A stretch of DNA of 64,000 bases from Candidatus Peribacteria bacterium (GTDB lineage: Bacteria > Patescibacteriota > Gracilibacteria > UBA1369 > 2-02-FULL-48-14), in the NCBI GenBank assembly GCA_943357175.1, contig CALRGE010000005.1, forward strand, positions 1 through 64,000, written 5' to 3'. Under the pieces are notes generated by a model, which saw nothing but the letters and a program-made list of their open reading frames with translations, made no database searches and was not told the origin of the DNA. Shown here piece by piece: positions 2,484 through 41,495 of this stretch (positions within the stretch are counted from its first letter, which is position 1; every line of letters begins with the position of its first letter). The position numbers and the translations under genes are program-made.

Positions 2484-2515
2484 TTTCTTCAGTGGAAGAA
2501 TTCAAGAAAACTAGT

Positions 2516-2544
2516 TTGCAAAAACACCCTTCTTGTGGTATAAT
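2516..2544 (+). promoter_or_regulatory. Sigma-70-type promoter of the 901-aa SLH gene
   Basis: TTGCAA (2516-2521), a 17-nt spacer and TATAAT (2539-2544), 24 nt before the ATG at 2569. The arrangement closely matches the promoters at 5284 and 31030 (TTGCRA followed by A's, 17-nt spacer, then an AAGAT/CAAGAT-like initial region). Confidence 0.75.
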
Positions 2545-2568
2545 TGCAAGATTTAAAAACAAAAACAC

Positions 2569-5274: not shown

Positions 5275-5283
5275 AATCGTAGC

Positions 5284-5312
5284 TTGCGAAAACCCGCATT
5301 TTGAAGTATAAT
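5284..5312 (+). promoter_or_regulatory. Sigma-70-type promoter of the 1058-aa SLH gene
   Basis: TTGCGA (5284-5289), 17-nt spacer, TATAAT (5307-5312), ATG at 5336. It lies in the 61-nt gap after the previous stop and matches the promoters at 2516 and 31030. The next SLH gene (8520) follows after only 7 nt, so it is probably transcribed from here too. Confidence 0.75.
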
Positions 5313-5335
5313 GGTAAGATTTATTCAAAATAAAT

Positions 5336-8300: not shown

Positions 8301-8512
8301 GGCTTGCAAAATTAACACTTCGTGGATTCACAGCAGCTGATTCAACATTCACAGACTTTGATGTTAACAGCTATCAAGCTTATGCAATCGTTCTCGGAGA
8401 ACAATACGGAGTAATCAAAGGTTATGACGATGGTTCATTCAAACCAAATTACAGCATAACTAGAGCCGAAGCTGCAAAAATAATTAACGGCTCAACAGTA
8501 TTATTCGAATAA
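5336..8512 (+). CDS. Giant SLH-domain surface protein with metal-binding repeats (type A, 1058 aa)
   Basis: N-terminal hydrophobic segment (about residues 5-22) followed by L30-Q31-G32, the motif shared with the neighbouring exported proteins. The middle holds one partial and two full carboxypeptidase-regulatory-like modules (about 150-275, 298-475, 480-650). Each full module has a 'DLTEDDF' start, a 'GYV' step, a Cys pair and a terminal 'GYDDY'. Residues about 657-790 carry Asp-rich motifs like the putative metal-binding MopE family ('ANDCNDSDATVY'). About 792-863 are thrombospondin type-3-like Ca-binding repeats. 875-1058 are three SLH repeats with TRAE. The order matches the first gene from the module onward, suggesting duplication. 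Likely a wall-bound, Ca-stiffened stalk or adhesin; the ligand is unknown. Confidence 0.87.
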   Translation: MKNKKLILAALSLALIVGGLAYGYSNGGLLQGRLSSGSGQTQGIISVLIGDEYYDVENIDQDHIIKDLTVDNFHVISQDYIGTNSFEALGWIFEGIYQLGVVNDTVYRVTASATGYVSTTELMKSCTDGMCRGIDATAMVDSEDTGLEYKGNAINLDYAYKVIVQHENNSPESGDTIDYTLATVTAGDLSTTCTYQENGESIDPMDPKTYYDSTGGEIDTASLETFMGDLDSNYYTVFTCPVPLETTDVNYKVALDGYITETGVFFYDRISNSDAQQIVVTDIMTAGTDPVEEEVVLYDSTITVVDSNGVAVTDLTEDDFSIMMNSTSISEFDSRQLSSGIYVLSLEDDPTLGTYTLYVTPEGYVRGSATISTDTEVTLEHSYSIFPVNSSAAAVSGATVTVISGSDIFDCTEYLTTGGYYCEVTTLSYDYLTYNIVASGYDDYDVTFDAYRSFNTSSAVTASPILTEGTSSGTDSTDLTYNNMYVTVVDSLSNPLTDLTEDNFIVTEENDLGIVSFDVSGSSTGTYALSLQVTDDTNYDLTVSSTGLVSESHVLKDNKIDYQTGMIMKYGYRVAVENSTAEVISGATVTAGTAYDTECIESGTGGVYACLIPVSNTDLTFKVVATGYDDYEDSFSIDRTLDSDAGVKALVTMTTTDPDADADGDTYTSANDCNDSDATVYTETTYYADTDGDGLGDPASSTSSCTATAPTGYVSNATDTYIEDYDNDGVTTASDCDDDDATISALQTYYVDADSDGLGDSTSSVSVCQLTAPTGYVSDSTDTSDTVATVDTTTDTDGDGLTDYSETNAYGTDATDTDSDADNISDYEEVVTFGTDPMDSDTDADGTPDGTEIEMGTDPLSASKTSKPANDDGLCVDPFIDMEGHWAEVAVCTLYEQGIVKGKSSNIYDPNSNVTRAEFLKMIMLQGGYDPTYYSGISVTKYSDVNVGDWYYTYVALADQMGALWYPSSGVWQPNSPITRGDAMLLSVRLAKLTLRGFTAADSTFTDFDVNSYQAYAIVLGEQYGVIKGYDDGSFKPNYSITRAEAAKIINGSTVLFE

Positions 8513-8519
8513 AAATAAA

Positions 8520-11500
8520 ATGTTCAAAAAAATCGCAATATTAATGGTGGTTTTAAGCATAATCGGCGGTGCCGCATTCATGTTTAATACAGCGATGTTG
8601 AAGGGAGCAGTTAGGATGGGAGACATAAACAAAGGAACATTCTCAGGAATAAGTGTAAATCAACCAGATACAACAATCGAAGTGCCAGAGTCAACAGGAA
8701 CAGTAACAGCGGTAAGTACAGGAATACCCTCACTTTACGTTAATAAATTAGGCACAGAAACAATAGAAATTGACTGGGATTCAGGCACAGAAATTAATTT
8801 AGGTACATATGCTATTCACGGTACTGTTGATATGACAATCTCAGATTTTGAACTGTATATAGATGTTCCAGAATCCTACCCAATTTCAGATTATTTTTCA
8901 CAAATCTTCATAACTCAAAATCAAGAGGGACTCTCTACAATCAATCGATCTGTATATGCAAACTCAAGTAATACACTTGATGCAAATGCAATGTATAAAT
9001 TCACAGTTTCTGGTGTCACAATTCCTGGAATCGATTTTAGCGCACATGAAGGTAAACAAGTCTCTATGATTGTTAATAAATTCGTAACAACCGATGGAGT
9101 ACCTTACACACTAGCAGCCCATCCAGGTAGTTATTTTTTTGATCTTAACCAAGCAACAGTCTCCGGATACACATATGGTGGATATACTTTAACTAGTGCG
9201 GAGGAAGATGCCGTTGAAGCCCCACAACCAGCAGCTACCTACTCAAATACTATTACAGTTACAGATGAGAATGGAGAATTAATCACTGATTTAACTGAAA
9301 GTGATTTCAGTATTGCAATGAACACCACAACAATCAGTGACTTTGCCAACAAGGGCTCAGGAATTTATCTTATAACATTAGCAGATGGAACGGCAGCATC
9401 TTACACATTACTTGTTAGTCCAGATGGCTATGTAGTCGATGGTTTACCATATAATGAAGGCTACGGTTCAGCAACCATATATGACGACAAAGTCTACACT
9501 GCAAGTGTTGTAATTGACCACGGATATACAATCTTCCCTGTTGACTCAAGTGGAGCAGCAGTTTCTGGCGCAGATGTAACAATTACAGATGGAACCTGTA
9601 TAGAATATCTAACAACAGGTGGATATTACTGTTTAGTAACAACGCTTAATTCAGCTCCAACATACACAATTATTGCAACTGGCTTTGAGAATTTTAGCAA
9701 AATATTCGATGAATATAGAACATACCCTGTCTCAGCCACTATAAGTGAAAGTCCTGAATTAACAGCCGGCTCATCAGAACCAGCTGCAGAAACTCCTGAC
9801 ACAGAAGAAACCGGAACAACAGGTGGCCTTGAATTCGCATTCAAAGAATTAGTTAGTGGTACGGGTTTAACAGCAAAATTAAGCACAGAAGATTTACACT
9901 TTTATAGTTCTGCCGACTCTTCAACAGAAGTTGAAGCGACAGTAGAGTTAATATCAGCACCAAAAGGTAAAACTACAATGGGGGCAACTCTCCCAGAAGG
10001 TGAATATACCGTGACAGTTTCACCTGAAGGTTACGTGAGTCAAGAATTTGGACCATACATAACTGCAGAGAATGTTTTCTTGGCAGATGCAAATTTTGAA
10101 AAACTAGAATACGGATATTATGTTCATATTTTAAATGATGCAAACACAAGTACCGTGATTGCAAACACAGTTGTTGAATGTGACAGCTTAGGTGATGGTT
10201 ATTACGGATGTGCAATCCCACTTAGTGTATCAATTCCAAATTTCACGGTTAGTAATGGTGAATATGCAGATTACTCAGCAAGCTTCACAACAGTTAGAGA
10301 TGAAGCCGCTGATCCAAGTGAAACAGCTGAAATGAGCTTAGGCGATTCAAGCCCACTGACAGGTGACGATTGGGTTATTCCAATTTCTGTTACAGATAGT
10401 ATTGGCCAGGTTATTGAAGGATTAACAGAATCAAATTTTGATCTTGGTGACCAAACCTTAACAGCAGTTGAAGATCTACTCGATGGAAATTATTATTTAT
10501 TCGTTGAGAATGGAGATGGAGATAGTTACGATGTGACAATTAACCTAACTGGCTATGTGAGCAACACAGCAGCTTATGACTCTGTAGATTTCGAAGAAAT
10601 TGCATTTGAAAGTACTGTGAATGAAATCACATTAGAATTCACTCACTACCTTAGATTACTTGATGCTGCAGGTGCAATAATCACAGGAGGAAAAATTACA
10701 GCCGGTGATAACTTTGCTGTTGAATGTTTAGATTTCTCAATCTTAACAACAGATTACGACGGCTTCTACGCATGTGGAGTTCCATCAACTGACAGCTCAA
10801 CTTTATTCAATGTTAGCGCGACCGGATACGACGATTACGAAGGCGACTTTGCAACTGAAGGTACTTTAGATGCAGAAGGTTATGTTACGGTAGATGTAAC
10901 TTTAACAAGCTCTACGACTGAAGATACAGATGCTGATGCCGTCGCTGATGACGTTGATGCTGATGATGACAATTACACTAGTGAAAATGACTGTAACGAT
11001 GCAGACTCAACAGTTTACGAAACATCAACCTATCATTTAGACGCCGATGGAGACGGTTACGGCGATTCAACAACAGGAGTAGAAATATGTTCCGCGACAA
11101 CACCTTCCGGCTATGTTGCGACAGGAACAGATTGTAGTGATACAGATGCAACAGTCTACACAAATCAAACATACTACTACGATGCTGACTCAGATGGTTA
11201 TGGTGATTATTCAACTTACGTTTCACAATGTACGATGACAGCACCAACCGGATACGTTACTAACAGTACTGATACAAGTGATGCGGTGGTAACAACAACT
11301 GCCACAACAAGTACAAGTAGCACAGATACAACTGCCACAACTTCAAGTAGTTCTTCTAGCTCATCAGCTTCAACAACATCAACAACTGCAGCTACAGCTA
11401 CAACAAACACTTCATCATCAGCAACAAAATCCGAAATCCTATCTGATCCTGATTATGTTTGTAACACTTCATTCTACGACATTATCGGACACTGGGGTTA

Positions 11501-12026
11501 TAATGGAATTTGCCGACTTTACAAAGCAGGAATTGTTAACGGTAAAACATCTACTACATTCGCACCAAACGATTATATTACTCGTGCCGAATTCCTAAAA
11601 ATCGCCTTGGGAAATGCCGGATACACAGTGAACGATGCAACAGGTTTGAGCGAAACAATGTTAGATGTTAACGACAGCGATTGGTACTCACCTTGGATTA
11701 AAATTGCAGAGAATAAAGGATTCCTTGGAAATGGCGGGGTAAATTGGTATCCAAATGCACTACTTTACAGAAAAGATGCAGTTGTAATAGCAGTAAGAAT
11801 TGCTAAACAAACACTTTACGGATTCACTCAAAATGACATTAATTTCACAGATGTATTCGTTAGTGATTACTTTGCATATGCAGTAATTCTTATGAACAAT
11901 ACAACTGTTGAAGGCAGTCCAATCATTAGTGGTTACTCAAACGGACAATTTGGAGGAAGCTACCACATGACAAGAGCTGAAGTCAGCGCAATGATTATAA
12001 GAGCTTACCTTGCTTGGTATAATTAA
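8520..12026 (+). CDS. Giant SLH-domain surface protein with MopE-like repeats (type B, 1168 aa)
   Basis: Starts 7 nt after the previous stop with no promoter in the gap, so co-transcription is likely. Hydrophobic segment (about residues 5-22), then L27-K28-G29. One copy of the beta-rich 'IDWD...LGTY' domain (about 50-235) is followed by three carboxypeptidase-regulatory-like modules (about 240-400, 415-590, 605-785), each with paired Cys. Residues about 800-915 hold two MopE-type metal-binding motifs ('ENDCNDADSTVY', 'GTDCSDTDATVY'). A Ser/Thr homopolymer-like linker (about 920-970) leads to three SLH repeats (975-1168). The SLH repeats resemble those of the 901-aa protein, so the four tandem genes alternate A-B-A-B. 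Predicted extracellular and wall-bound. Confidence 0.87.
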   Translation: MFKKIAILMVVLSIIGGAAFMFNTAMLKGAVRMGDINKGTFSGISVNQPDTTIEVPESTGTVTAVSTGIPSLYVNKLGTETIEIDWDSGTEINLGTYAIHGTVDMTISDFELYIDVPESYPISDYFSQIFITQNQEGLSTINRSVYANSSNTLDANAMYKFTVSGVTIPGIDFSAHEGKQVSMIVNKFVTTDGVPYTLAAHPGSYFFDLNQATVSGYTYGGYTLTSAEEDAVEAPQPAATYSNTITVTDENGELITDLTESDFSIAMNTTTISDFANKGSGIYLITLADGTAASYTLLVSPDGYVVDGLPYNEGYGSATIYDDKVYTASVVIDHGYTIFPVDSSGAAVSGADVTITDGTCIEYLTTGGYYCLVTTLNSAPTYTIIATGFENFSKIFDEYRTYPVSATISESPELTAGSSEPAAETPDTEETGTTGGLEFAFKELVSGTGLTAKLSTEDLHFYSSADSSTEVEATVELISAPKGKTTMGATLPEGEYTVTVSPEGYVSQEFGPYITAENVFLADANFEKLEYGYYVHILNDANTSTVIANTVVECDSLGDGYYGCAIPLSVSIPNFTVSNGEYADYSASFTTVRDEAADPSETAEMSLGDSSPLTGDDWVIPISVTDSIGQVIEGLTESNFDLGDQTLTAVEDLLDGNYYLFVENGDGDSYDVTINLTGYVSNTAAYDSVDFEEIAFESTVNEITLEFTHYLRLLDAAGAIITGGKITAGDNFAVECLDFSILTTDYDGFYACGVPSTDSSTLFNVSATGYDDYEGDFATEGTLDAEGYVTVDVTLTSSTTEDTDADAVADDVDADDDNYTSENDCNDADSTVYETSTYHLDADGDGYGDSTTGVEICSATTPSGYVATGTDCSDTDATVYTNQTYYYDADSDGYGDYSTYVSQCTMTAPTGYVTNSTDTSDAVVTTTATTSTSSTDTTATTSSSSSSSSASTTSTTAATATTNTSSSATKSEILSDPDYVCNTSFYDIIGHWGYNGICRLYKAGIVNGKTSTTFAPNDYITRAEFLKIALGNAGYTVNDATGLSETMLDVNDSDWYSPWIKIAENKGFLGNGGVNWYPNALLYRKDAVVIAVRIAKQTLYGFTQNDINFTDVFVSDYFAYAVILMNNTTVEGSPIISGYSNGQFGGSYHMTRAEVSAMIIRAYLAWYN

Positions 12027-15135: not shown

Positions 15136-15945
15136 ATGTTGCCTGTAATATTCGAATCCGGATTTATTTCAATTAAAACATATTGGGTTTTTATTGTAGC
15201 GGCACTTTTAATTTCATCTTATCTTGCAGTTAACAGATTAAAAAGACAAAGGGTCGATTTTTTATTGCTCATAAAGCAAAGCAGTTCATATGTGCTAATT
15301 CCACTTATTATTTCGAGACTAACTTTTTTCATTCTCAATACAAATACATACTTGCCAGCACTTGATCTCCGAACATTCATCAATTTTTTCTCGATATGGG
15401 ATCAAGGCTTATCTATTTGGGGTGGAATTACAGGATTTTTTATAATCCTAACAATACGCTTAATAAAAGCAAAAGAAGATATATGGAAATGGTATGATGC
15501 ACTAATCGTGCCACTTCTAATTGGCATGGCAATAATTAATATTGGGCAATTTTTAGGAGGCTTTTCATATGGATCACCAACAAATTTACCTTGGGGAACT
15601 CATTATGAACTTGATAACGTTATGTACACAGTAGCAATTCACCCAACACAAATTTACACTTTGATCACAATTATATTAATTTTATGGAGCAAGAAGAAAA
15701 TTCAAAATAAGTCTCATTTTTTCAAAAGAGAAGGAAATGCGAGTATTTATCTAACTTTTATGAGCTCTCTAGCATTTTTTCTACTTGAATTTCTAAGAGG
15801 CGATGATACAATCACCATCTTAAACATAAGGCTTGATGCCTACATGTTCTTCCTTCTAAGCGTGGTCAGCGCTTACGCTCTATACCATAGATATAAAGAA
15901 TTTAAACACACAAAACATGAACCCACTGAAACTACTGGATCCTAA
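15136..15945 (+). CDS. lgt: Prolipoprotein diacylglyceryl transferase-like membrane protein
   Basis: A 269-aa polytopic protein with the Lgt layout: 'IKTYWVF' near the N-terminus, 'GLSIWGG' where Lgt has 'GLSFHGG', 'IGQFLGGFSYG' where Lgt has 'RLGNFINGELWG', 'HPTQIY' for 'HPSQLY', and 'LEFLRGDD' for 'VEFFRQPD'. Lgt transfers diacylglycerol from phosphatidylglycerol to the lipobox Cys. By ungapped alignment from memory, E. coli Arg143 and the conserved His103 are replaced (Asn and Trp), while Arg239 is kept. It is therefore either a divergent Lgt or a relative with altered activity. Lipobox proteins encoded nearby (17865, 35824, 44615) show that the organism needs an Lgt. Its end overlaps the next gene by 29 nt. 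Confidence 0.75.
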   Translation: MLPVIFESGFISIKTYWVFIVAALLISSYLAVNRLKRQRVDFLLLIKQSSSYVLIPLIISRLTFFILNTNTYLPALDLRTFINFFSIWDQGLSIWGGITGFFIILTIRLIKAKEDIWKWYDALIVPLLIGMAIINIGQFLGGFSYGSPTNLPWGTHYELDNVMYTVAIHPTQIYTLITIILILWSKKKIQNKSHFFKREGNASIYLTFMSSLAFFLLEFLRGDDTITILNIRLDAYMFFLLSVVSAYALYHRYKEFKHTKHEPTETTGS

Positions 15946-28646: not shown

Positions 28647-28689
28647 CGTTTGAATGCTAACATGCTTTCGATTTAAAAATAAGCATCAT

Positions 28690-29094
28690 ATGAAAAACCT
28701 ATACGCAGTTTGGATTGACCACGAAAAAGCATTCATTGTTAAAGCTAACCCAATGGGTGACATGACATTTTCAACATTGCTCTCTGAAGTTGAACCGCAC
28801 AGAAAAAGTACAGATCACGGCGGCGATCAATTTACAATCACGAATCAGAACAGAATGGAAGAAAGAAGATCGAACGAAATGCACTCTTTCACTAAAAGTA
28901 TCGTGAGCCATTTGACTGATGCAGATGAAATTCTTGTTTGCGGACCATCGACTGCAAAGTTCGACCTCAAACATGAAATTGAAAAAAGCAAGCCGCTTGC
29001 AAGCAAGCTAACAAAAGTTGAAACTTGCGACAAAATGTCTGAAGCTGAGTTGAAAGAATACGCTAAAAAAGAGCTAAATCTTCCTCGAGATTAA
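28690..29094 (+). CDS. Small eRF1/Pelota-domain-like protein (134 aa)
   Basis: The start is set at 28690 (MKNLYAVWIDHEKAF), because the 12 codons upstream overlap the divergent gene's promoter region and do not look like this fold. The pattern 'WIDHEKAFIV', 'HSFTKSIVSHLTDADEILVCGPSTAKFDL' and 'VETCDKMSEAELKEYAKKEL' resembles domain 3 of eRF1/Pelota and the bacterial release-factor-like (baeRF) proteins. A role in stalled-ribosome handling is possible but rests on that resemblance. It is divergent from the riboflavin kinase and overlaps the end of the convergent ligase-like gene by 4 nt. Confidence 0.72.
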   Translation: MKNLYAVWIDHEKAFIVKANPMGDMTFSTLLSEVEPHRKSTDHGGDQFTITNQNRMEERRSNEMHSFTKSIVSHLTDADEILVCGPSTAKFDLKHEIEKSKPLASKLTKVETCDKMSEAELKEYAKKELNLPRD

Positions 29095-30303: not shown

Positions 30304-30969
30304 TTATTTTAAGGCCAGGCAAAGTTCTCTCAAAATATCCATAGGTTTTGGAGCGCGCACAACTCCACTTGCAACCAAAATTCCACATGCACCTAATTCT
30401 TTCGCAACTTTCACATCATTTGCAGTTTTAATTCCTGCCCCAACCAAAACTCGATTAGATCCTAAAATTTTAACAGCATCGCTAATTAAATGTGGCTTTG
30501 CTGTTGAAACTGAAACTTCACCACCAATCAAATCCGGCGGCTCAATAGCAATCAAATCAGGATTAAATTTCACAAGATATTCACATTCTTCAACTGACTC
30601 AGCGCAAACCACAGAAAACATTCCGTCAATCTTCATCTGCGCTATTGCAGCTGCCATGTGGTCGTCACCAATTCGCCTTTCCGAGTGATTCAACAAAGAT
30701 CCATCAACACCAAGCGGCTTCAAAATTGTTACTGGAATATGGCCTGTGAAAGCACCGTAACCAACACCATCAACATGTTGAGCCAAAACCGGTATTGAAA
30801 CCGACGCAGCAATTAGCGCCAAATCAACAGCCTGAACCGCAACCGCAATATTCACACCAATTTCATTCGCCAATCTTTCAATATCTTTGGCCATATTTTG
30901 ACCGTTGACACCTGTTGATTCTTGATAAGCCTTAAAATTCACAATCACTAGCGGCAAATTGAAATTCAT
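30304..30969 (-). CDS. tpiA: Triosephosphate isomerase, archaeal-type short form
   Basis: Interconverts dihydroxyacetone phosphate and glyceraldehyde-3-phosphate. At 221 aa it is about 30 residues shorter than the usual bacterial enzyme. Catalytic residues are K13 ('VNFKAY'), H95 ('LLNHSERR') and E143 ('AIEPPDLIGG'), with the phosphate loop 'VGAGIKTANDV' and 'GILVASGVV'. The 'NFKAYxE' and 'EPPxLIGG' signatures are those of the archaeal/short TIM group. Its start is preceded by TAATTT 6 nt before the ATG, possibly leaderless. Confidence 0.95.
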   Translation of the reverse strand: MNFNLPLVIVNFKAYQESTGVNGQNMAKDIERLANEIGVNIAVAVQAVDLALIAASVSIPVLAQHVDGVGYGAFTGHIPVTILKPLGVDGSLLNHSERRIGDDHMAAAIAQMKIDGMFSVVCAESVEECEYLVKFNPDLIAIEPPDLIGGEVSVSTAKPHLISDAVKILGSNRVLVGAGIKTANDVKVAKELGACGILVASGVVRAPKPMDILRELCLALK

Positions 30970-31029: not shown

Positions 31030-31058
31030 TTGCAAAAATACATTTTTTGTGGTAAGAT
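31030..31058 (+). promoter_or_regulatory. Promoter of the 31-40 kb giant-protein locus
   Basis: TTGCAA (31030-31035), 17-nt spacer ending TTGTGG, then TAAGAT (31053-31058); ATG at 31090. The -35, the A run after it and the TTGTGG before the -10 are nearly identical to the promoter at 2516. Confidence 0.7.
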
Positions 31059-31089
31059 AACGAGATAAATAAAAACTAAAACAAAAAGT

Positions 31090-34000
31090 ATGGCAATACG
31101 ATGTATAAATTACGGCTTCATTAAGCCATTCGGGAAGAGTGTAGTGTTTTCAGATGCGCCAGACTCTACACCGGAAGTTAAGAGCTCACCATTTACTGAT
31201 CAAGAAAAATTAGATGTGTTTAATGCACAAGTTGAGAAAAATCTAGAATCAAAAAACCAAGAGGTAATAAAACACTTAATGGAGGCTTTAACTAAAGATG
31301 GCGGAACAATTGATGCAGAGGAATATAAAAACCTGCGAGATTGGATGTATAAACTAGACGGCCTTGAAAAACAATTAAGTGATGGCGTTATAGACAAAAA
31401 AGCATATGAGGAATCTGTTACTGCTTTAAGATCAGTTGCATGGGGTGATAACTTAGAAATTCCTGCAGACACAATTAAAGAATTAGAATTATTGCACAAG
31501 CAGGCGGAAGAGAGATTACAATTACGAGAAGCTTATACAAAATCTGTTGTAAAACTTGAATTCCTTGTAGGTGGAAATGGAAGATTAACACAGGCAGATA
31601 TTGGATCAGAATTCGCAAATGATTCATCATACAAAATTGACTTCGGTAATTTAACTGAAAATGATGCGCTAAGCGCACAAAAAAAATATGGACTAAAAGA
31701 CATGTTACCGGCAAATGTTAAATCTGTAATGATTACTGCACCAAGTAAAGATGCAAGACTGGCAACAAAAGGCACTGATGGCAAATTCTATTATAAAGAT
31801 AATGGGAAATACGCTTCAGTCTTCCAAAATTACGAAATTAAAATCTCAGGTTCTGAAGTAAGCGCAGAGGAAAAAGCAAAAATTGATGCAGATGCTCAAG
31901 CAGTGCTTGATGAAGCAGGAGATCCGGAAGTTCTTCAAAGAATTGAGGACAAAGATAAAATCGCAGAATATGAGACAACTCTTGTTGCTGAAACAAAAGA
32001 AGAAGATTTTTCTGAGTATTGGAAAATTAAAGATGATTTTTCAGAAAATGCAAAAATTCAAATACCGGAAGCAATCCAAAAAATGGATCCGGCTCAATTT
32101 GCAGCCGATCTTCCTTATATGGCTCATGGAAGAGAAGTTGGAGAAGCGCTGACTCAACTAGATCCAAGCAGACAAATACAGGATGTTTATTCAGATATAA
32201 GAAACAGGAAACTTGCTCCAAACCACATCAGTCTAGATGAGATTTCATTATCTATAAAAGGTAAACATAATTGGGAAATTTCGAATCAAATCCCGAACGA
32301 AGATAGCTTTAAAGAAATATTAATTTTAGATGAAATTGAATCAAATGAAAAATATACTAGTAAAAGAGCTGAAATAGTGAAATTAGTAAGAAATGCAACC
32401 GGATTTGATAATAGTCAAATTGAAGCGGTATTGGACAATCGTGCAACAGTGGTTGAGAAGAAAAAGAGTTTTGAAGAAGTCAAATCATTCATTGCTGCAT
32501 CAGCAAAATTGATGAGAGAAGTTCCAAAACTTGAACCAAAAGAAAAAGCTGATACATATGACGAAAAGTTTATAATCAAAGATTTAGGGCAAGTTGAAAC
32601 AGTTGCAAAATTCATCTTTCCAGATCATGCAAGTAAAGGCCCTGTTGCTTTTAGAACTTTCTTACAGAAAATTTTAGGTAAAGGAAAAGGTACACTTAAT
32701 ATGGAGAATTTACATTCCAGAACAGGAATTGTTGGCAGCGATTTGGAGAAAACCGCTTCCGGTGAATCTGCATATGTTCAATTAGTTGCATCTGCAATTG
32801 GATTTGGCCCAGAAGGTGAACCAGTTGTAAATAAGGAGGTTTTTGTTGCAAAATTAAATGAATTAAGAAAATTAGGATTAGATAATGTTGCATCAAGCTC
32901 AAATAAAGACTTAATTGCTAGATCTGAAGATCCTGCAAATAAAGAGTATTTGGATAAACCAATTACAAATGATTATATCTTTGGTGAAACTGCAGAAGGT
33001 GTTACTGAACTTGAACGAGATCTGATGCAATTAGGATTTAGTAGAAATACAGAAATACAAAGAGTAACAGACATATATGAATACTCAGAAGCACAAAAGA
33101 AATACCCTGAGATTTTTGCAGGATTAGACCCGGTTAGAACACCAATTCTAAGTGCAATTATCAAAAACAATCCTCAAATAAGCGAAGCTGATTTGAAAAA
33201 AACATCAGAGATTGTAAAAGAAAACATGCTAATTATGGCAGGTGTCAGCTATCATCAAAAAATAGTTGATGACCAGAGAAATGTAACAAATCACCCGGGT
33301 AAAACAGTTACAGATATAGTTCATGGAGCAATCGCAAAAACTTTTGATACTCCTGCAGGAACATTAATATTGGCTGTTGATTCAACAGGGAATATAAGTG
33401 TAGCGATTCAAAACGAACAAAAATTAGATAAGAAAGGCCGTGTTAGATTGGAAGAAACTGCCGGAGTAAGTGCAGGCCTAGATGGAACAAGAGTCGGTGG
33501 ATCAATAATGTTAAAAATCTCGCCAGACAAATACTTAGAACATAATCTTGTTCTTGGAGCCGCAGCAGGTGCAGCACTCGACAGAAATCCTGGATTTGGA
33601 TTGGCACTTGTACTTGGTTACGAATTAAATCTTGAAGGAACTCAAGCAAGGTTAGAAGCAAAATATTCTGAAGATCCTGAATTAAATGCAAAATTAGATG
33701 CTGAGTATAAAGCATTCGAAGCAGAGCTAATTGCTAAGAATGTTCCGCCTGAACTTAGAAAAGCATTATTGGCAAACACAACTAAGTTTGTTGAAGATAA
33801 CAGAAGTGGACAAGCAGTAAATGACATGCCTAAAGTTGTTTTAAAACAAGCATCAGTTGCCATAACCGAACATGGTTTTGGAGTAGCTATTACTGTTGGA
33901 TTTAAAGGAAAAGATGAAATTTTCTATTCAATTCCAGAACAACCAGACCAAAATGAGAGCGCACGCGCAAAAATATATGAACAACTTACATCAAAAATGG

Positions 34001-35814
34001 GTGCAGATATGCAAAGCGCAACACAAGTATACGTTGCAGGAGAAATGATGATGACAGCAGATGGTTATAAAACTATCTCTAAATCAGAAGTAGAAAAAGA
34101 TAAATTGGAATCTATTAATGCTCAACTTGCAGTTCAAGGGCTCCAATTAATCCCAGTTGAAACTGAAAATGGGGAGAATCGATTAAGATTACGAGTAACA
34201 AAAGTTCATGGAAATGTTGATATTTTCACAGATAACACATCTGGAATAGAAACATATCCATCAAGTAAAGGTGATGTATTTATCAATATTGATGAAGCTG
34301 ATAAGATTTCAATTCAAAGAATTGACAGCTATAGCCAATTAAGAAAAGGCGGCGGTGTTTTAAATACTGAAATTTTTATTTCAAATGATATTAGAAAACC
34401 AACAGAACTGATAAAACGAAATAGCTCAGGTATGATTCATACAGAAAGCAACATAGCAAGTGGTCAAACACTTGATGCAATATTCATTCCAAATAGTGAG
34501 AACGCTGCCGGATCATTCGATAGTGAAGCTGACGCAAAAGCTGCAGGAATCGAAATAAATGATCTATATGCAGATATGCAAGATGTGAAGGCTGCCGGAG
34601 CTGAAATGGATAAAGCACTTCGAAGTGGCGAATATGAATCTTCATTAAGTGAAGATAAACGAAAAGAACTTACCAAATATGCGAAAGAAATTGTTGGTGA
34701 TGATGAAAAGCTATACAGACGGCTATCTGTTGACATGAAAGCAGAAGAAATTACTGCATTAATCCTAAAAAATCCAAATTGTCAAAATTTAAGTCCAAAA
34801 GAAATGACTTATATGCATCAAGCTTTGATGGTTGCCAGCCTTGCGGCACCAAAAAAAGATGCGGAATTTGTTAGACACATTCAAGAATGGAATAGAACTG
34901 CTTTAGAAAGTCAGTTGAAAGATAAAGGTATGAAAGGAGTTGATGCTAAAAACATCTCAACAAAAATAATGAAGTCTTATGGTGAATCATTAACAAAGTG
35001 GTTTGCTGAGGGCCATGCTGAAGAAAATTTCGGCAAATTCTCAATACCGAGTGGAGCAATCGTCCAAATTCAAGTAGGAACACAAAAAATTGAGGGTTAT
35101 AGACAGGCTTTCTATCAACCTGAGGGTTCTCCAGCAATACTTGGTGGAGTAAATCTTACGGACGATGTCTATCTAACAGGTACAATGAAATTAACTCCTG
35201 AGGAAGCTAAACTTTTCCAAGATGCAATGACTGCACGGCTCTCCCCTATGGAAACAACAGAACAAGTATTAAAGAGCCAGTTAGGATTAAGCGTATTATC
35301 TGCCTCTGAAATTATTTTTGGTGCTGATAAATGTAGAGAATTAACAGCAATAGTAAACAATAAAGACCCACAACTGAGATTAGGTGGATCAACCTTAGAT
35401 GAATTCTTAAAGCTTGTTCATGAACTTAGAGAGAAAGGCAGAGTAACAAGGCCAGATGGAATGATATTAAATGTAAACTTAACAAAAGAAATGGGATTCT
35501 ATGAAGCTTGCAGAAATTTCACAATGGTAATGGATGAAAAACTTTCAATTACCGTTCCAAGAATGGCAGGAAGAGTGGAACTAACCTCATACATCACTGG
35601 CAAGAAACAAGCACATTATAACAGCATAGCAGTTGCAACTTTCATAAGTACAGATGAGAAAGTAAAGCCACCACATGAGAGACCAGAGGCAGAGGAAGAA
35701 GATAATGTAGGTGAAAAAACACCTCCAATTGCGCTTGAACCTGATCAAGTCATACCAGATGTAATTAGAGCTAACGCTGATGGAAGCAACAGCAGTGGAG
35801 TGCCAACAGAATAA
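31090..35814 (+). CDS. Giant protein of unknown function (1574 aa)
   Basis: No family recognised. There is no signal peptide (start MAIRCINYGFIKPFGKS), although the two genes after it encode exported proteins. The N-terminal 850 residues are charged and mainly helical with several coiled-coil-prone stretches. About 770-850 is a Gly-rich alternating segment ('SAGLDGTRVGGSIMLKIS', 'LVLGAAAGAALDR') that looks like beta hairpins. The middle (850-1150) is mixed. The C-terminal 350 residues are helical, then beta-rich, with an acidic Pro-rich tail (from about 1515). Codon use looks like that of its neighbours. It has its own promoter and is followed after 9 nt by a tiny lipoprotein gene. Confidence 0.85.
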   Translation: MAIRCINYGFIKPFGKSVVFSDAPDSTPEVKSSPFTDQEKLDVFNAQVEKNLESKNQEVIKHLMEALTKDGGTIDAEEYKNLRDWMYKLDGLEKQLSDGVIDKKAYEESVTALRSVAWGDNLEIPADTIKELELLHKQAEERLQLREAYTKSVVKLEFLVGGNGRLTQADIGSEFANDSSYKIDFGNLTENDALSAQKKYGLKDMLPANVKSVMITAPSKDARLATKGTDGKFYYKDNGKYASVFQNYEIKISGSEVSAEEKAKIDADAQAVLDEAGDPEVLQRIEDKDKIAEYETTLVAETKEEDFSEYWKIKDDFSENAKIQIPEAIQKMDPAQFAADLPYMAHGREVGEALTQLDPSRQIQDVYSDIRNRKLAPNHISLDEISLSIKGKHNWEISNQIPNEDSFKEILILDEIESNEKYTSKRAEIVKLVRNATGFDNSQIEAVLDNRATVVEKKKSFEEVKSFIAASAKLMREVPKLEPKEKADTYDEKFIIKDLGQVETVAKFIFPDHASKGPVAFRTFLQKILGKGKGTLNMENLHSRTGIVGSDLEKTASGESAYVQLVASAIGFGPEGEPVVNKEVFVAKLNELRKLGLDNVASSSNKDLIARSEDPANKEYLDKPITNDYIFGETAEGVTELERDLMQLGFSRNTEIQRVTDIYEYSEAQKKYPEIFAGLDPVRTPILSAIIKNNPQISEADLKKTSEIVKENMLIMAGVSYHQKIVDDQRNVTNHPGKTVTDIVHGAIAKTFDTPAGTLILAVDSTGNISVAIQNEQKLDKKGRVRLEETAGVSAGLDGTRVGGSIMLKISPDKYLEHNLVLGAAAGAALDRNPGFGLALVLGYELNLEGTQARLEAKYSEDPELNAKLDAEYKAFEAELIAKNVPPELRKALLANTTKFVEDNRSGQAVNDMPKVVLKQASVAITEHGFGVAITVGFKGKDEIFYSIPEQPDQNESARAKIYEQLTSKMGADMQSATQVYVAGEMMMTADGYKTISKSEVEKDKLESINAQLAVQGLQLIPVETENGENRLRLRVTKVHGNVDIFTDNTSGIETYPSSKGDVFINIDEADKISIQRIDSYSQLRKGGGVLNTEIFISNDIRKPTELIKRNSSGMIHTESNIASGQTLDAIFIPNSENAAGSFDSEADAKAAGIEINDLYADMQDVKAAGAEMDKALRSGEYESSLSEDKRKELTKYAKEIVGDDEKLYRRLSVDMKAEEITALILKNPNCQNLSPKEMTYMHQALMVASLAAPKKDAEFVRHIQEWNRTALESQLKDKGMKGVDAKNISTKIMKSYGESLTKWFAEGHAEENFGKFSIPSGAIVQIQVGTQKIEGYRQAFYQPEGSPAILGGVNLTDDVYLTGTMKLTPEEAKLFQDAMTARLSPMETTEQVLKSQLGLSVLSASEIIFGADKCRELTAIVNNKDPQLRLGGSTLDEFLKLVHELREKGRVTRPDGMILNVNLTKEMGFYEACRNFTMVMDEKLSITVPRMAGRVELTSYITGKKQAHYNSIAVATFISTDEKVKPPHERPEAEEEDNVGEKTPPIALEPDQVIPDVIRANADGSNSSGVPTE

Positions 35815-35823
35815 AAAATTAAT

Positions 35824-35973
35824 ATGAAAAAAATCACAATAATCAGCTTATTACTTCTAATGCTTACGGCATGTACAAATGAAGCTGCCAAAAAATATGC
35901 CAATCCTATCCAAAATATGGATGGAATCTCACAAAGAAGCACTTCAATAGAAACTAATACAGTACCTGAATAA
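35824..35973 (+). CDS. Tiny lipoprotein (49 aa)
   Basis: ATG at 35824, 9 nt after the giant gene; the stop TAA (35971-35973) shares a base with the next ATG (TAATG). The product MKKITIISLLLLMLTAC then TNEAAKK has a canonical type II signal (lipobox L-T-A-C) and a mature part of only 33 residues ending in TVPE. Position and coupling tie it to the giant protein before it and the 1213-aa surface protein after it. It may be a membrane-anchored partner or lysis-protein-like; no family known. Overlooked by length filters. Confidence 0.8.
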   Translation: MKKITIISLLLLMLTACTNEAAKKYANPIQNMDGISQRSTSIETNTVPE

Positions 35974-38900
35974 TGAATAAAATTAAAACATACACACTCG
36001 CATTAATCTCTGGACTAACACTTGGATTTTTAATTCAACTGAGTCCAATTAGTTCAGCATATTCAGTAGATCTTCAAGTAGTGGATGAATTAGAACAGAC
36101 CCTTATTTGTAGTTTAGAGGCAACACATATTCATGCATACACAAATGAATCAGGCCCAACAGACGGGATTGAATATTGGGCAAGAACAAACAAATTCAGA
36201 ATTTACCTTCATGATGATTTCATGAGTAACGTGGATTTAGACACTTTGGAATGTAGCTCAGGCGGAAGGTGGATCTCATGTGATGGTGGAACAAGTACAT
36301 CAGATGGAGGTACAAGCGTTGAATTTGTACAAAACGATAGATCAAGTGACGCTGTTTATCCTGATTACGTTGAATGGACATATGGAAATACAACAGCAAG
36401 TGATTCACCAATCATGCCAGGTTATAATGACTACGACCAAGATGGAGACATTGACACATCTCCAGAATCAGACAGAACAATGGGTGAATATTTAACCTAT
36501 GATTTTATTGAAGATGATAGTGGAAAAGCCAGCACTACATCATCAATTTATATTAAATTTTGGGCATACGACATTGAAGATGACACTTGGACCGCAATTG
36601 AAGAAGATGGAGAAACTGATTATCACTGGAATAACCATACTGGTACAAATATAACAAATTATACTTGTCCTGCTGCAGGCTGTGCCTTAATGACAATCAC
36701 CCCAGACGAAGTCGGCGTAGACAATCTCTACACAAGCACAGACTTCGAAGTAACTGCATACGACTCGGAAGGAACAGACATTACCGCAGATTTAGAAGAT
36801 GAAGATGGTTTTGATTATACAGCAACCGGAGAAGGTGCATTCAAATATTTATGGACTACGAGGCAAACCCTAAGCGGTGCCGACGCAACACAAACCTACA
36901 AAAAAGCAGGTGCAGGTGATTCTTTCACTGTCGAAGCAGTGGGTTATGAAGATACTTGTAAAGTTGAAATCGCATTCCCTTATTGTGAAGATTTAACGGT
37001 CAACGAGCCAATCATGCCAATATTCTCATCTGCTCCTTATACAACAGATATTGATATTGATGTGACAGCTTCAAACGGTGAAGTTTGGCCTTTCGATATC
37101 ACTTATACTTCAGATGATTCTGATGCTACTTTTGACGGAGAGACCTCACCTTACACAACAACAGAAACAAACGTCGCCTACTCAAGTTCAGTCAGCGCTC
37201 AAGTTGACATCGAAGCAGACCACGACGACGCAGGTCTTTGTAAAACAAATTTCTCTTACACAATTACAGAAGAAGAAACTCCTGATCAATACTGCACTCT
37301 TTTGGAACTAGAAAGAATCGATTCAACAAATTGCTGGACATATGACATTACAAACAGTCAATCATTCCAAGGCACTCTTTACGCCGAAGGTTACACAGAC
37401 TCAACAGGAACAACCCTCGCCACATCAAAACTTAAAATTGATAGTGAATCTTTTGCTAATCCTGCAAGTTCAACACTTCAAAATTTAACAAGTGATTACT
37501 CCGGTAAAATTTGCTGGCCGGAATATGAAGTAGGAAATTATCTTAAGGTTTATGTTGAAGATGAAGATTCTTGTTTGGCAGAATATGTTGAAACGATCCC
37601 TGCTATTTGTAACGACATTGAAGTAACACCTTCAAGCGGAAATTGCTGGACTTATGAGCTTAATAACGAAGCAGATTTCAACGGTACACTTTGTGCTGCA
37701 GGTTACACAGACAACACAAAAGCAACAACAAACGGTACAATTACAATTTATGACGAACGTGAAAAGTCAGTAAGCGGAAACGAAGCATGTGTGGAATTAA
37801 AAAATCCAAAAAGCATATATGAAGGTTCAATCTGCTGGCCAGAATACGTAAAAGGAAATTACTTAGATGTTTACGTCGAAGATCAAAACATGTGTCTTTA
37901 TAATTACGAAGACACAACACCTGAAGAAGAAACTCCAGGAGAAACTAGCGGTGGTCCTGGTGCCCCAACAAATGTCTTTGGGAATGGAGGAGGAGTAATA
38001 GATTCACCAGGTATTGAGCTTCCTGATTCAGTTATCACTATAGTATACCCTGAACTTTCAGGAACACTTTCAAAATATGTTTACACATTCAACTTCGCAG
38101 ATCAAAAAAAGTTGGAACCTGATGTAGATAGAAATATGTTTCCTTCACATGATTTAGATTATGCATTTTACACACTTGAATATGACCCTGAAGAAGGTGA
38201 ATCATACATCACTTTCGGTGATGACATGTGGATAAACGATATAAGTGGATACTTTGGTAACAGCGAACCATCAAGTGGATCTGTTAAATTATTATCAGAT
38301 ACAAGCGAATTAAGCACATACGAATCAACAAAGAGATTAGGCTTAACCGACGCTCTTGAATCAGGTTCAGATGACATTGGAAATGCAGCAATCGGAAGAT
38401 ATTGGATTCCATATATTAGTAATGATAACGGAAATAAAACTGAGATATTTGATTGTACTTCATACCCAGACAATGTTTGTTATAATCTCGATTATAATCC
38501 TGTAGATACAAGCAATGTCTTAATTCAAAATGCAGATCTTTTAAATGAAGATGAAGTGATAAGAATTAGATATGTTGGAAGAGTTCACCAAACAGAAGGA
38601 CTTTGTGAGGATGAGGACAGAAAAAATCCTGATGGAACAACTGACGCATGTTTAACAGAAACATTCGACAACAATGGATATGTAATTGCATATGGTGGTT
38701 ATCAAGGAATTACTGCGCAAGCAAAAATCGTAGTTTTATGTCAGTATATTGTGACTAGAAATGCAGGTGACGTTTATCTTGATGATGTATTACCAAGCGG
38801 TAGTGATATTTCATGTATTAACTGGGGCGAGGTAACTGAAGGTGAAGAATACGCCAACATTGAAGGAATTATTGTTAATAACTATTCCATAGATACTACT

Positions 38901-39614
38901 GCCGGATTCTGTAATGGAACTGATTCATCATCAGACAACTTCATCAGTAACTTAAGTTCTTATGTTTGCGAGATCTTCAGTACGGTTAGTGAAATCTGGG
39001 ACTCTGCAACAATTACAGAAATCACTGTAGAGCATGTTTACGAAGAAGTTAGGAATGCAGAAACAATACAAACCCAGCAAGGGTTGTATAATCATAGTTT
39101 CAACTCTTGGAAAGAACTTCAACAAATATTATCAAATCAAAACAATCTTGATAGTGGAATTTTATATTACCTAGGCACAGGTGAAACAGATGTAATCACT
39201 TTAAATTCTAAAATGGAAGTGGAAGAAGGTGCATGGACCTTAATTGTTGAAAACGCAACACTTAGAATTAACGAAGACATTGTCTACTTGAATAACACTT
39301 ATGAATCATCAATTGCTTTCATAGTCATCAATGGAGATATTGATATCGGCGTTGGTGCAGAAATTCTAAATGGTGTTTACTACACTGATCAAGGATTCAC
39401 AGGAGATTGGAGAAGTCCGGTAACAGGTCAACTAACAATCTACGGTTCTATCTATGGTGATGTTAGTGAACTACTTACAAAAGCAAATTACGTCGGTTCA
39501 CCTAACCTAGATGGTGGTGGAATCGTGGTGTATTACGATAGCCGAATTTTGCTTAACACTCCTCCAGGACTTGCAGAATACGTGGATGTAAACAGCGAGC
39601 AGGCTGTGAATTAA
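35973..39614 (+). CDS. Large secreted surface protein (1213 aa)
   Basis: Classical signal peptide with cleavage near 'SSAYS-VDL' (about residue 30). Extracellular parts: an N-terminal beta-rich region; Ig-like domains (about 245-430) similar to the one in the first SLH gene; two tandem repeats of about 90 aa (about 453-545 and 549-648) sharing 'CWTY', 'F.GTL.A.GYTD' and 'ICWPEY..GNYL.VYVED'; an acidic Gly/Pro hinge; then a C-terminal beta region. The end ('IVINGDIDIGVGAEILNGVYY', 'YYDSRILLNTPPGL') recalls the C-termini of PilX-like or pilus-associated beta-helical proteins. There is no SLH or sortase motif, so the anchoring mode is unknown. Many paired Cys suggest disulfides. Confidence 0.85.
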   Translation: MNKIKTYTLALISGLTLGFLIQLSPISSAYSVDLQVVDELEQTLICSLEATHIHAYTNESGPTDGIEYWARTNKFRIYLHDDFMSNVDLDTLECSSGGRWISCDGGTSTSDGGTSVEFVQNDRSSDAVYPDYVEWTYGNTTASDSPIMPGYNDYDQDGDIDTSPESDRTMGEYLTYDFIEDDSGKASTTSSIYIKFWAYDIEDDTWTAIEEDGETDYHWNNHTGTNITNYTCPAAGCALMTITPDEVGVDNLYTSTDFEVTAYDSEGTDITADLEDEDGFDYTATGEGAFKYLWTTRQTLSGADATQTYKKAGAGDSFTVEAVGYEDTCKVEIAFPYCEDLTVNEPIMPIFSSAPYTTDIDIDVTASNGEVWPFDITYTSDDSDATFDGETSPYTTTETNVAYSSSVSAQVDIEADHDDAGLCKTNFSYTITEEETPDQYCTLLELERIDSTNCWTYDITNSQSFQGTLYAEGYTDSTGTTLATSKLKIDSESFANPASSTLQNLTSDYSGKICWPEYEVGNYLKVYVEDEDSCLAEYVETIPAICNDIEVTPSSGNCWTYELNNEADFNGTLCAAGYTDNTKATTNGTITIYDEREKSVSGNEACVELKNPKSIYEGSICWPEYVKGNYLDVYVEDQNMCLYNYEDTTPEEETPGETSGGPGAPTNVFGNGGGVIDSPGIELPDSVITIVYPELSGTLSKYVYTFNFADQKKLEPDVDRNMFPSHDLDYAFYTLEYDPEEGESYITFGDDMWINDISGYFGNSEPSSGSVKLLSDTSELSTYESTKRLGLTDALESGSDDIGNAAIGRYWIPYISNDNGNKTEIFDCTSYPDNVCYNLDYNPVDTSNVLIQNADLLNEDEVIRIRYVGRVHQTEGLCEDEDRKNPDGTTDACLTETFDNNGYVIAYGGYQGITAQAKIVVLCQYIVTRNAGDVYLDDVLPSGSDISCINWGEVTEGEEYANIEGIIVNNYSIDTTAGFCNGTDSSSDNFISNLSSYVCEIFSTVSEIWDSATITEITVEHVYEEVRNAETIQTQQGLYNHSFNSWKELQQILSNQNNLDSGILYYLGTGETDVITLNSKMEVEEGAWTLIVENATLRINEDIVYLNNTYESSIAFIVINGDIDIGVGAEILNGVYYTDQGFTGDWRSPVTGQLTIYGSIYGDVSELLTKANYVGSPNLDGGGIVVYYDSRILLNTPPGLAEYVDVNSEQAVN

Positions 39615-39677: not shown

Positions 39678-39705
39678 TTGATATACGTAAAAAATGGAGT
39701 AATAT
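39678..39705 (+). promoter_or_regulatory. Promoter of the ECF-like sigma gene
   Basis: TTGATA (39678-39683), 16-nt spacer, TAATAT (39700-39705), then 20 nt to the ATG at 39726. The -35 overlaps the upstream TTG codon at 39678, which argues against that codon as a start. Confidence 0.6.
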
Positions 39706-39725
39706 TCGCTCTCTTTATAAATTTT

Positions 39726-40274
39726 ATGGAACAGCCAAGCCAAGAAATTCTTGCGGAAGAATTTATACAAATCAGAGGAGGCTTAATAAATCATGCATCT
39801 GGAATCACTAAAAATGAACAAGATGCCGAAGAAATAGTTTCTACGGTTATTGAAACGTTTCTAGTTAAGCTCAATAGCGGTGAACTACAAATGTATAACG
39901 CAAATTATAAAACCTACCTGTATACAGCTGTTAGAAATCGTGCTTTCAATTTAATCAGAGATAGACAAAGAAGATACAAAATAATTGATTCTCATGAATG
40001 GGAGAATGCATCTAATTCAAATCAGGAAAACGAATTAAATCTCAAACAATTAACTGATTTATATTTACAATCACTCGGAGAACTTCCAAATCATCAAAAT
40101 GAAGCAATGCAGCTTAGAACACTAGGAGATTGTAGTTATCAAGAGATAATGGAAAGACAAGGTATAAAAATGGGGACTGTGATGTCTCGTTTATCAAGAG
40201 CACGAAAACAAATCAAAGAAGTATTATCTGCCAATGCGGATTATGAGGACCTGTTAAAATACACAATTCTCTAA
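39726..40274 (+). CDS. ECF-type RNA polymerase sigma factor
   Basis: 182 aa from ATG 39726 (MEQPSQEILAEEF). Region 2 is 'LINHASGITKNEQDAEEIVSTVIETFLVKL' and 'KTYLYTAVRNRAFNLIRD'. Region 4 is 'LPNHQNEAMQLRTLGDCSYQEIMERQGIKMGTVMSRLSRARK', the helix-turn-helix for -35 recognition. No region 1 or 3 is present. No anti-sigma gene is adjacent. It sits 111 nt downstream of the 1213-aa surface protein gene with its own promoter, so it may control surface-protein expression; this is not shown. The 3' end overlaps the next convergent gene by 4 nt. Confidence 0.88.
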   Translation: MEQPSQEILAEEFIQIRGGLINHASGITKNEQDAEEIVSTVIETFLVKLNSGELQMYNANYKTYLYTAVRNRAFNLIRDRQRRYKIIDSHEWENASNSNQENELNLKQLTDLYLQSLGELPNHQNEAMQLRTLGDCSYQEIMERQGIKMGTVMSRLSRARKQIKEVLSANADYEDLLKYTIL

Positions 40275-40544: not shown

Positions 40545-41495
40545 ATGAAAATAGAAAATTTAACTTTCATGTACGGAGAAGACAGTTTTTCTCTTCAAAA
40601 AGAAGTCGACCGCTGGAAAAAAGGCTTCATAGAAAAACATGGTGATTTAAACCTCTTAGAGATTGCAAACGGAGAAATTGAAGTGGCGGAATTACGATCC
40701 AACATCAGCTCCCTTCCCTTTCTTGGTGAAAAACGACTGATAATCCTGAAAGATTGCTTAAAAAAAGCTGAATTAAAAGAAGCTCTGGCAGATATTCCTA
40801 GTTCAACAGTAGTTTTGATTGCGGAAACAAATCCACCTGATAAACGTACTTCACTTTTCAAACATCTTTCTGTTGTTGCCACTGTCCGACTTTTCCTTCC
40901 TCCAAAAGGCGCACAACTGCGCACTTGGGTGGAAAGACGCACAGAATTTCATGAGGGTCATATTGATGGAAATGCAGCAGCATATCTAATTAATATTTGC
41001 GGCGAAAACCTTTGGAATCTTGATAATGAAATACAAAAACTTTGCCTTTACGCCCGCGGAGAATCAATTTCAATCGAGAAAATTGAGGAACTTGTAAGTG
41101 GAAACATTCAAGAATCCATTTTCAAAATGATTGATGAGCTTTCTCAAAAAAGAGTTGCAGAAGTTTTGAGGCTACTCCGCCAACTACAAGAACAGGGCGA
41201 AGATGCCGGCTTTGTTTTTTCCATGATTGCACGCCAATTCCGTTTAATGCTTGAAGTCAAAGCTCTACTTGAAGAGCGCTACAATCCAAATATGCTTGCT
41301 TCGCGAGTGGGAATTGCGCCTTTCGTTGCGAATATCGTTAGCCGCCAGTGCAGAAATTTCACTTATGGCGAACTTCGCAAAGTAATGTCCGGTTTATTGA
41401 AAATTGACCGAAGATTAAAAACCGGCTTACTCGAACTCAGCGCCAAAAACCAAGATCATTATTTATTGGAGATTGAGAGATTGTTTGTTGCCTGA
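40545..41495 (+). CDS. holA: DNA polymerase III delta subunit
   Basis: Clamp-loader wrench subunit that opens the beta clamp. 316 aa: a degenerate AAA+ N-terminus ('FMYGEDSFSLQKEVDRWKKGF', 'SLPFLGEKRLIILKD', 'VVLIAETNPPDKRTSLFKHL'), then 'AAAYLINICGENLWNLDNEIQKL' and the helical C-terminal collar ('FSMIARQFRLMLEVKALLEE', 'LLKIDRRLKTGLLE'). It ends in TGA. An extended -10 (TG-A-TAGAAT, 40533-40538) ends 6 nt before the ATG, so the mRNA is probably leaderless. Confidence 0.94.
   Translation: MKIENLTFMYGEDSFSLQKEVDRWKKGFIEKHGDLNLLEIANGEIEVAELRSNISSLPFLGEKRLIILKDCLKKAELKEALADIPSSTVVLIAETNPPDKRTSLFKHLSVVATVRLFLPPKGAQLRTWVERRTEFHEGHIDGNAAAYLINICGENLWNLDNEIQKLCLYARGESISIEKIEELVSGNIQESIFKMIDELSQKRVAEVLRLLRQLQEQGEDAGFVFSMIARQFRLMLEVKALLEERYNPNMLASRVGIAPFVANIVSRQCRNFTYGELRKVMSGLLKIDRRLKTGLLELSAKNQDHYLLEIERLFVA

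Follow-up and report, generated by a model that had tools for sequence, protein, structure and literature searches.

Patescibacteria are considered monoderm (PMC8871954, PMC12857230), and most of them carry a monoderm-type type IV secretion system (T4SS) (PMC12102498). In a cultivated Patescibacterium, a T4SS of the monoderm type is essential for epibiotic growth (reviewed in PMC12857230). A role in attachment has been proposed for the large exported proteins of Peribacteria and the giant membrane proteins of Vampirococcus (PMC4736985, PMC8080830). We analyzed a locus that encodes a giant protein and a large surface protein in a 64,000-nucleotide stretch of a Candidatus Peribacteria genome (the window). 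No earlier description of this pair was found in the literature searched, outside of which lie most subscription journals.

Three described systems come close to this locus. The predicted C-terminal barrel of the giant resembles KdgM/NanC porins and the small barrels of outer membrane proteins (TtoA, the N-domain of OprF, and OmpA), whose alternating hydrophobic and polar strands are matched in part of the giant family. Unlike these proteins, the giant has no signal peptide, an insertion of ~500 aa between strands and an N-terminal extension of more than 700 aa, and it occurs in an order without detected Omp85 and in a lineage held to be monoderm. The Peribacteria and Vampirococcus proteins (PMC4736985, PMC8080830) are likewise very long and come from related CPR bacteria, several of them are exported, and the surface partner is of this kind. 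However, those described are exported or reside in the membrane, and many have adhesion repeats; as far as the accessible parts of these reports go, a leaderless giant with a fixed partner is not among them. The patescibacterial T4SS (PMC12102498) offers a possible path for leaderless proteins through a monoderm envelope and the genome of the window encodes a VirB4-like ATPase, whereas no T4SS gene lies at the giant locus and we only infer a link to the giant.

Genes of the locus and their conservation

The genome from which the window derives is 1.23 Mb, and the records of its relatives are labelled Candidatus Peregrinibacteria, Peribacteria or Gracilibacteria. The features of the locus are listed in Table 1. 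A preliminary description had reported a giant protein without a signal peptide, followed by a lipoprotein that is coupled to a secreted protein, and the open reading frames bear this out. Since only seven codons separate the ATG of the giant from an upstream in-frame stop (open frame of 1581 aa), no N-terminal signal peptide was missed. The lipoprotein gene starts 9 bp past the stop of the giant gene, and its own stop overlaps the start of the surface protein gene by one base in TAATG (35971-35975). The surface protein begins with a classical hydrophobic leader. The lipobox of the small protein ends at Cys17, is kept in relatives and is a lipoprotein signal; the LPAM_1 match was near threshold (E 0.0038, 18 bits versus a cut-off of 20). 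A gene for Lgt is present within the window (15136-15945).

Table 1. Coordinates of the locus, its flanks and the parts of its proteins (window positions unless a locus in a relative is named)
Feature	Positions	Strand	Basis or remark
tpiA, divergent flank, conserved	30304-30969	-	Neighbourhoods in relatives
Promoter-like element, weak, TTGCAA-N17-TAAGAT, 5' of giant	31030-31058	+	Read directly off the sequence
Giant, 1574 aa, without signal peptide	31090-35814	+	ORF; single copy in own genome
Giant, ~105-aa domain, aa 155-258	31552-31863	+	Single-sequence matches and profile
Giant, first part of predicted barrel, aa 748-947: nine strands, helical hairpin between strands 7 and 8	33331-33930	+	AlphaFold2; VIA-align to KdgM/NanC porins
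Giant, mixed domain of ~510 aa, inserted between predicted barrel strands 9 and 10	33931-35463	+	AlphaFold2
Giant, last predicted barrel strands with near-invariant C-x-N (Cys1474, Asn1476; 35509-35517)	35464-35649	+	Alignment and model
Giant, C-terminal tail, acidic and proline-rich	35650-35811	+	Sequence; low pLDDT where modelled
Lipoprotein, 49 aa, lipobox LTAC	35824-35973	+	ORF; counterparts in relatives ~45-52 aa
Surface protein, 1213 aa, Sec signal peptide	35973-39614	+	ORF; partner adjoins giant in relatives
Surface protein, conserved C-terminal domain (...IYGSIYGD...YYDSRILLNTPPGL...)	39306-39590	+	Shared among partners
holA (DNA polymerase III delta subunit), conserved downstream flank	40545-41495	+	Name from sequence resemblance, no family search
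Middle-protein loci of family f7	L142 11221-11757; L148 11101-11637; L067 10110-10640		

The preliminary description also had one promoter drive all three genes. The element 5' of the giant matches only 8 of 12 consensus bases, which is below the threshold of the promoter scan, so that it was not listed there, and promoter-like matches in the region showed no excess over shuffles (22 found versus 34 expected). A common promoter is thus left unestablished. An ECF-like sigma factor with regions 2 and 4 is encoded directly 3' of the surface protein gene (39678-40274, +). It was rejected as a member of the locus because it is absent from that place in the relatives read, and these neighbourhoods indicate that it is probably specific to this genome. 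Elsewhere in the window, a 146-aa protein of no known family (28654-29094, +) has a relative beside the giant locus of genome G002 (L014 11465-11875).

All four relatives of the same family that cover the stretch have the identical order of giant, 45-52-aa lipoprotein and large exported protein. A first profile, made from the C-termini of giants, found giants in eight families. A broader C-terminal profile (A5) detected one giant per genome in 65 of the 89 genomes of the Peregrinibacteria order, and in 49 of its 62 good-quality genomes; in the other orders of the class (~220 genomes) it gave one borderline match. Three of the 65 matches are weak (E above 1e-4), one of these having in-frame stops, and the other 62 have E values below 1e-6. 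Since the locus is kept across many families of the order, a chance origin is excluded. As the preliminary description had supposed, neither large protein has a recognized family: the giant has no Pfam family, no NCBIfam family above noise and no useful match among PDB sequences, and the surface protein has no Pfam or NCBIfam family. Two giants are exceptionally long, those of G048 (3344 aa; L144 1328-11362) and G010 (open frame of 4969 aa; L219 2-10117).

We read the neighbourhoods of 42 giants. One giant lies at a contig edge, which leaves 41 with readable downstream sequence. In 40 of these, the gene directly after the giant encodes a large protein that begins with a hydrophobic leader. The two genes are thus kept together in relatives, and the family searches did not place the giant in a known family with a plain intracellular role, the two outcomes that would have spoken against the preliminary description. 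The sole exception is G008, in which holA directly follows the giant and no partner is present. The conserved C-terminal domain of the partner was seen in 31 of the 40, and the remaining nine run off their contigs. Leaders were judged by hydrophobicity in a Kyte-Doolittle window, with no trained predictor. The N-terminal window of the partners was 1.9-3.5 in nearly all cases, and a hydrophobic N-terminus was absent from all 42 giants (window maximum of 1.6 or less), some of which are 5'-truncated by contig ends. Where no small gene intervenes, the gap between giant and partner is usually 3-40 bp. Where contigs allow, the usual flanks are tpiA, divergent upstream, and holA downstream. Some genomes of family f2 have an extra leaderless gene of 155-190 aa just 5' of the giant (L149 16253-16825, L152 791-1351, L103 15258-15725, L108 5883-6353).

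Four genomes without the giant retain the chromosomal site. The tpiA and holA genes of G007 and G028 are close together, with neither giant nor surface protein, and those of G042 and G052 are separated by nothing but a gene for a pilin-like protein of ~470 aa, again without giant and surface protein. Since both are missing together at four tpiA-holA sites, giant and surface protein are present or absent as a unit. Going by these gene neighbourhoods, the unit is the giant plus the surface protein. The C-terminal domain of the surface protein alone was found at least once in another context (L123).

The lipoprotein is not an obligate third member, and was rejected as such because most families either lack it or have a TM-anchored or cohesin-like protein in its place. 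A small membrane-anchored protein is encoded between giant and partner in 16 of the 41 neighbourhoods. It is a lipoprotein in families f1 (that of the window), f9 and f15, and a single-TM protein of 49-77 aa in others; in family f7 it is TM-anchored, has 176-178 aa and gives a marginal match to a cohesin domain. As such a protein occurs in only 16 of 41 cases and varies in type, the third part is optional and the lipoprotein represents one form of it. Of the three-gene set proposed in the preliminary description, the giant and surface protein thus hold together throughout the order, whereas the lipoprotein does not.

The surface protein carries no SLH domains detectable with Pfam, unlike four other proteins of the window. 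These are four consecutive large SLH proteins (813, 901, 1058 and 1168 aa; 42-12026, +), which form an S-layer-type gene cluster separate from the giant locus. The partner in G030 (L105 5382-10382) has several SpaA prealbumin-like domains and a peptidoglycan-binding domain, domains that are typical of adhesins. Among CPR surface proteins the exported partner is of an ordinary type; the giant, by contrast, is unusual.

The two halves of the giant

When the sequence of the giant itself was used as a query, its N-terminal half matched two proteins from other families with E values of 1e-6 and 4e-5, an SGNH hydrolase and a lytic transglycosylase protein, both of which are leaderless. A profile of the ~105-aa domain gave matches in 61 of the 89 genomes of the order. 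The companions of the domain, as assigned by Pfam, are GDSL/SGNH lipase, beta-lactamase-type, M15 peptidase and polysaccharide deacetylase domains; transglycosylase and NlpC/CHAP-like parts were recognized by eye only. A clear leader was missing from each of 20 domain-bearing enzyme proteins (N-terminal window at most 1.8), and a profile made from the enzymes only ranks the window giant first (E 1e-15). The domain common to the giant and the wall enzymes is non-catalytic, and Pfam and NCBIfam revealed no recognizable wall-enzyme catalytic domain in the giant. A search of PDB sequences with the domain yielded nothing useful. Among giants, the domain is present in those of f1 and marginally in those of f7, and not in those of other families. 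The leaderless class in which the domain is joined to wall-active enzymes includes a protein of the same genome as the window (L047 1928-3412, contig C10) and those at L049, L050, L053, L055-L062 and L064-L066; one member is a multi-enzyme protein of 1679 aa with phosphatase-like, SGNH, DUF218 and polysaccharide deacetylase domains.

In many giants, and in some of the leaderless enzymes, the N-terminal region carries a short motif, [RK]-[LF]-[VLI]-[FY], followed by a P/E-rich linker, and the motif of the giants also occurs in the extra upstream f2 genes of L149 and L152. As a general export signal it was rejected. In the complete genome G053, its frequency was 3.1% at N-termini versus 1.1-2.3% elsewhere, and two leaderless carriers were convincing. 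With no more than this slight N-terminal excess and the two carriers, we do not claim the motif as an export signal.

The C-terminal half of the window giant (residues 700-1530) was modelled by AlphaFold2 from 27 sequences, with a mean pLDDT of 70 and a pTM of 0.50. The model consists of seven strands, a helical hairpin, two strands, the insertion of ~500 aa and three final strands. In VIA-align it matched KdgM with Z 11.7 (140 of 170 residues, 2.5 A), and the other top ranks were the TamA barrel (11.7), VhGalP (11.1), SAM50 (10.6) and NanC (10.4); the aligned ranges extend to the last strands. With Foldseek, no PDB structure or viral model matched the giant significantly (best E 0.017), and the weak entries at the top of the ranking were disregarded. 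A second model was made for the giant of family f15 from an alignment without any f1 sequence. It has the same order of elements, and its first eight strands close alone, with a barrel pLDDT of only ~50-65. Its matches were TtoA of Thermus (Z 12.8), OprF (12.8) and a designed transmembrane barrel (12.5), while soluble avidin scored ~10. Since models from two families both give a barrel, it is predicted twice, although closure takes 12 strands in the window-giant model and 8 in the f15-giant model. Strand amphipathicity is only about twice that of shuffled sequences, and hydrophobic alternation is seen in many giants and missing in some families. The most conserved residues of the giants are the C-x-N near the C-terminal strands. 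The C-terminal half of the giant is thus predicted to be an outer-membrane-type beta-barrel that is split by the insertion.

Envelope context and possible roles of the pair

Omp85 (PF01103) was found in none of the 89 genomes of the order, while control genomes were matched; there is therefore no known machine to fold a barrel outside the cell. A VirB4-like ATPase was detected with a VirB4 query from the lineage in 81 of the 89 genomes, including that of the window, in which it is 67% identical to the query over ~670 aa. It also occurs in genomes without the giant. PF03135 was discarded as a T4SS marker because it was too insensitive (16 of 59, none in family f1). Like a T4SS substrate, the giant lacks a leader and is encoded in a genome that also has a T4SS ATPase.

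Single-copy conservation, adjacency, joint loss, the missing leader of the giant and the leader of the partner are read from the sequences themselves. The preliminary description had called the giant apparently cytoplasmic, which is doubtful because its domain is common to leaderless wall enzymes and a membrane-type barrel is predicted. It had also suggested an undescribed envelope machine for contact or export. An undescribed envelope system is the best reading, since the genes are kept together, belong to no known family and pair a leaderless giant with an exported partner throughout the order, but contact or export is unsupported as it was written. We tentatively favour an order-specific envelope system with a core of the giant and its Sec-exported partner and with an optional anchor. 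In this system the giant would take a non-Sec route of export and act in a membrane. The giant would leave the cytoplasm by this route, as the leaderless wall enzymes with its N-terminal domain presumably do, and type IV secretion is an available candidate. The wall, together with the surface protein or the small anchor, may hold the giant at the cell surface, where it would act in a membrane, most plausibly at the site of contact with a neighbouring cell. A fuller version, in which a signal-less transmembrane barrel is exported without Sec along with the domain-marked wall enzymes, forms without Omp85 and serves with the partner as a conduit at the contact between the epibiont and another cell, is unlikely.

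The main rival to an exported envelope giant is a cytoplasmic assembly factor. The giant would reside in the cytoplasm or at the inner face of the membrane, with its barrel-like sheet soluble or peripheral, and help to make or export the surface protein as its scaffold or chaperone. The lack of a leader, the small number of cysteines (0-9 per giant), the low overall hydrophobicity and the lack of detected Omp85 are all consistent with this, and the tight coupling to and joint loss with an exported partner suit a dedicated export or assembly factor. Nevertheless, its N-terminal domain is common to enzymes with an extracytoplasmic substrate, peptidoglycan, and transmembrane barrels come first among the barrel matches, and we regard a cytoplasmic role as somewhat unlikely. 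The barrel might instead insert into the cell's own cytoplasmic membrane from inside, as a gasdermin-like conduit of which the surface protein is the outer part. Leaderless synthesis, the barrel prediction in two families, the failure to find Omp85 and the small TM or lipoprotein anchor often encoded between giant and partner point in this direction. On the other hand, closure of the fold is uncertain, we know of no bacterial cytoplasmic membrane in which so large a barrel is constitutive, and constitutive pores would be toxic unless gated, which makes insertion from inside very unlikely.

It has also to be considered that the giant is a T4SS effector delivered into or onto a host cell, where the barrel would enter the host outer membrane while the surface protein acts as an adhesin that holds the contact. 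The VirB4-like ATPase in 81 of 89 genomes, the domain common to leaderless wall-active enzymes and the essential T4SS of the cultivated epibiont (PMC12857230) argue for an effector. We consider it distinctly unlikely, however, since VirB4 is also present in giant-less genomes and the strict single copy in nearly every genome suggests a core structural part. Finally, the adjacency could reflect no more than a conserved gene order, in which a surface gene and an unrelated cytoplasmic gene share a stable place in the chromosome, as the flanks tpiA and holA are themselves conserved. This is highly improbable because both genes are gone together from the same site in four genomes, the gaps without a small gene are usually 3-40 bp, and a partnerless giant was seen only in G008.

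The favoured envelope system bears on the open question of how Patescibacteria, with their small genomes, make contact with other cells and exploit them. Two giant envelope proteins that are kept as a single-copy pair throughout the order, one of them leaderless with a predicted barrel, would be concrete candidate machinery for this. Since the ~105-aa domain marks a class of signal-less wall-active enzymes, non-Sec export in this group is directly testable.
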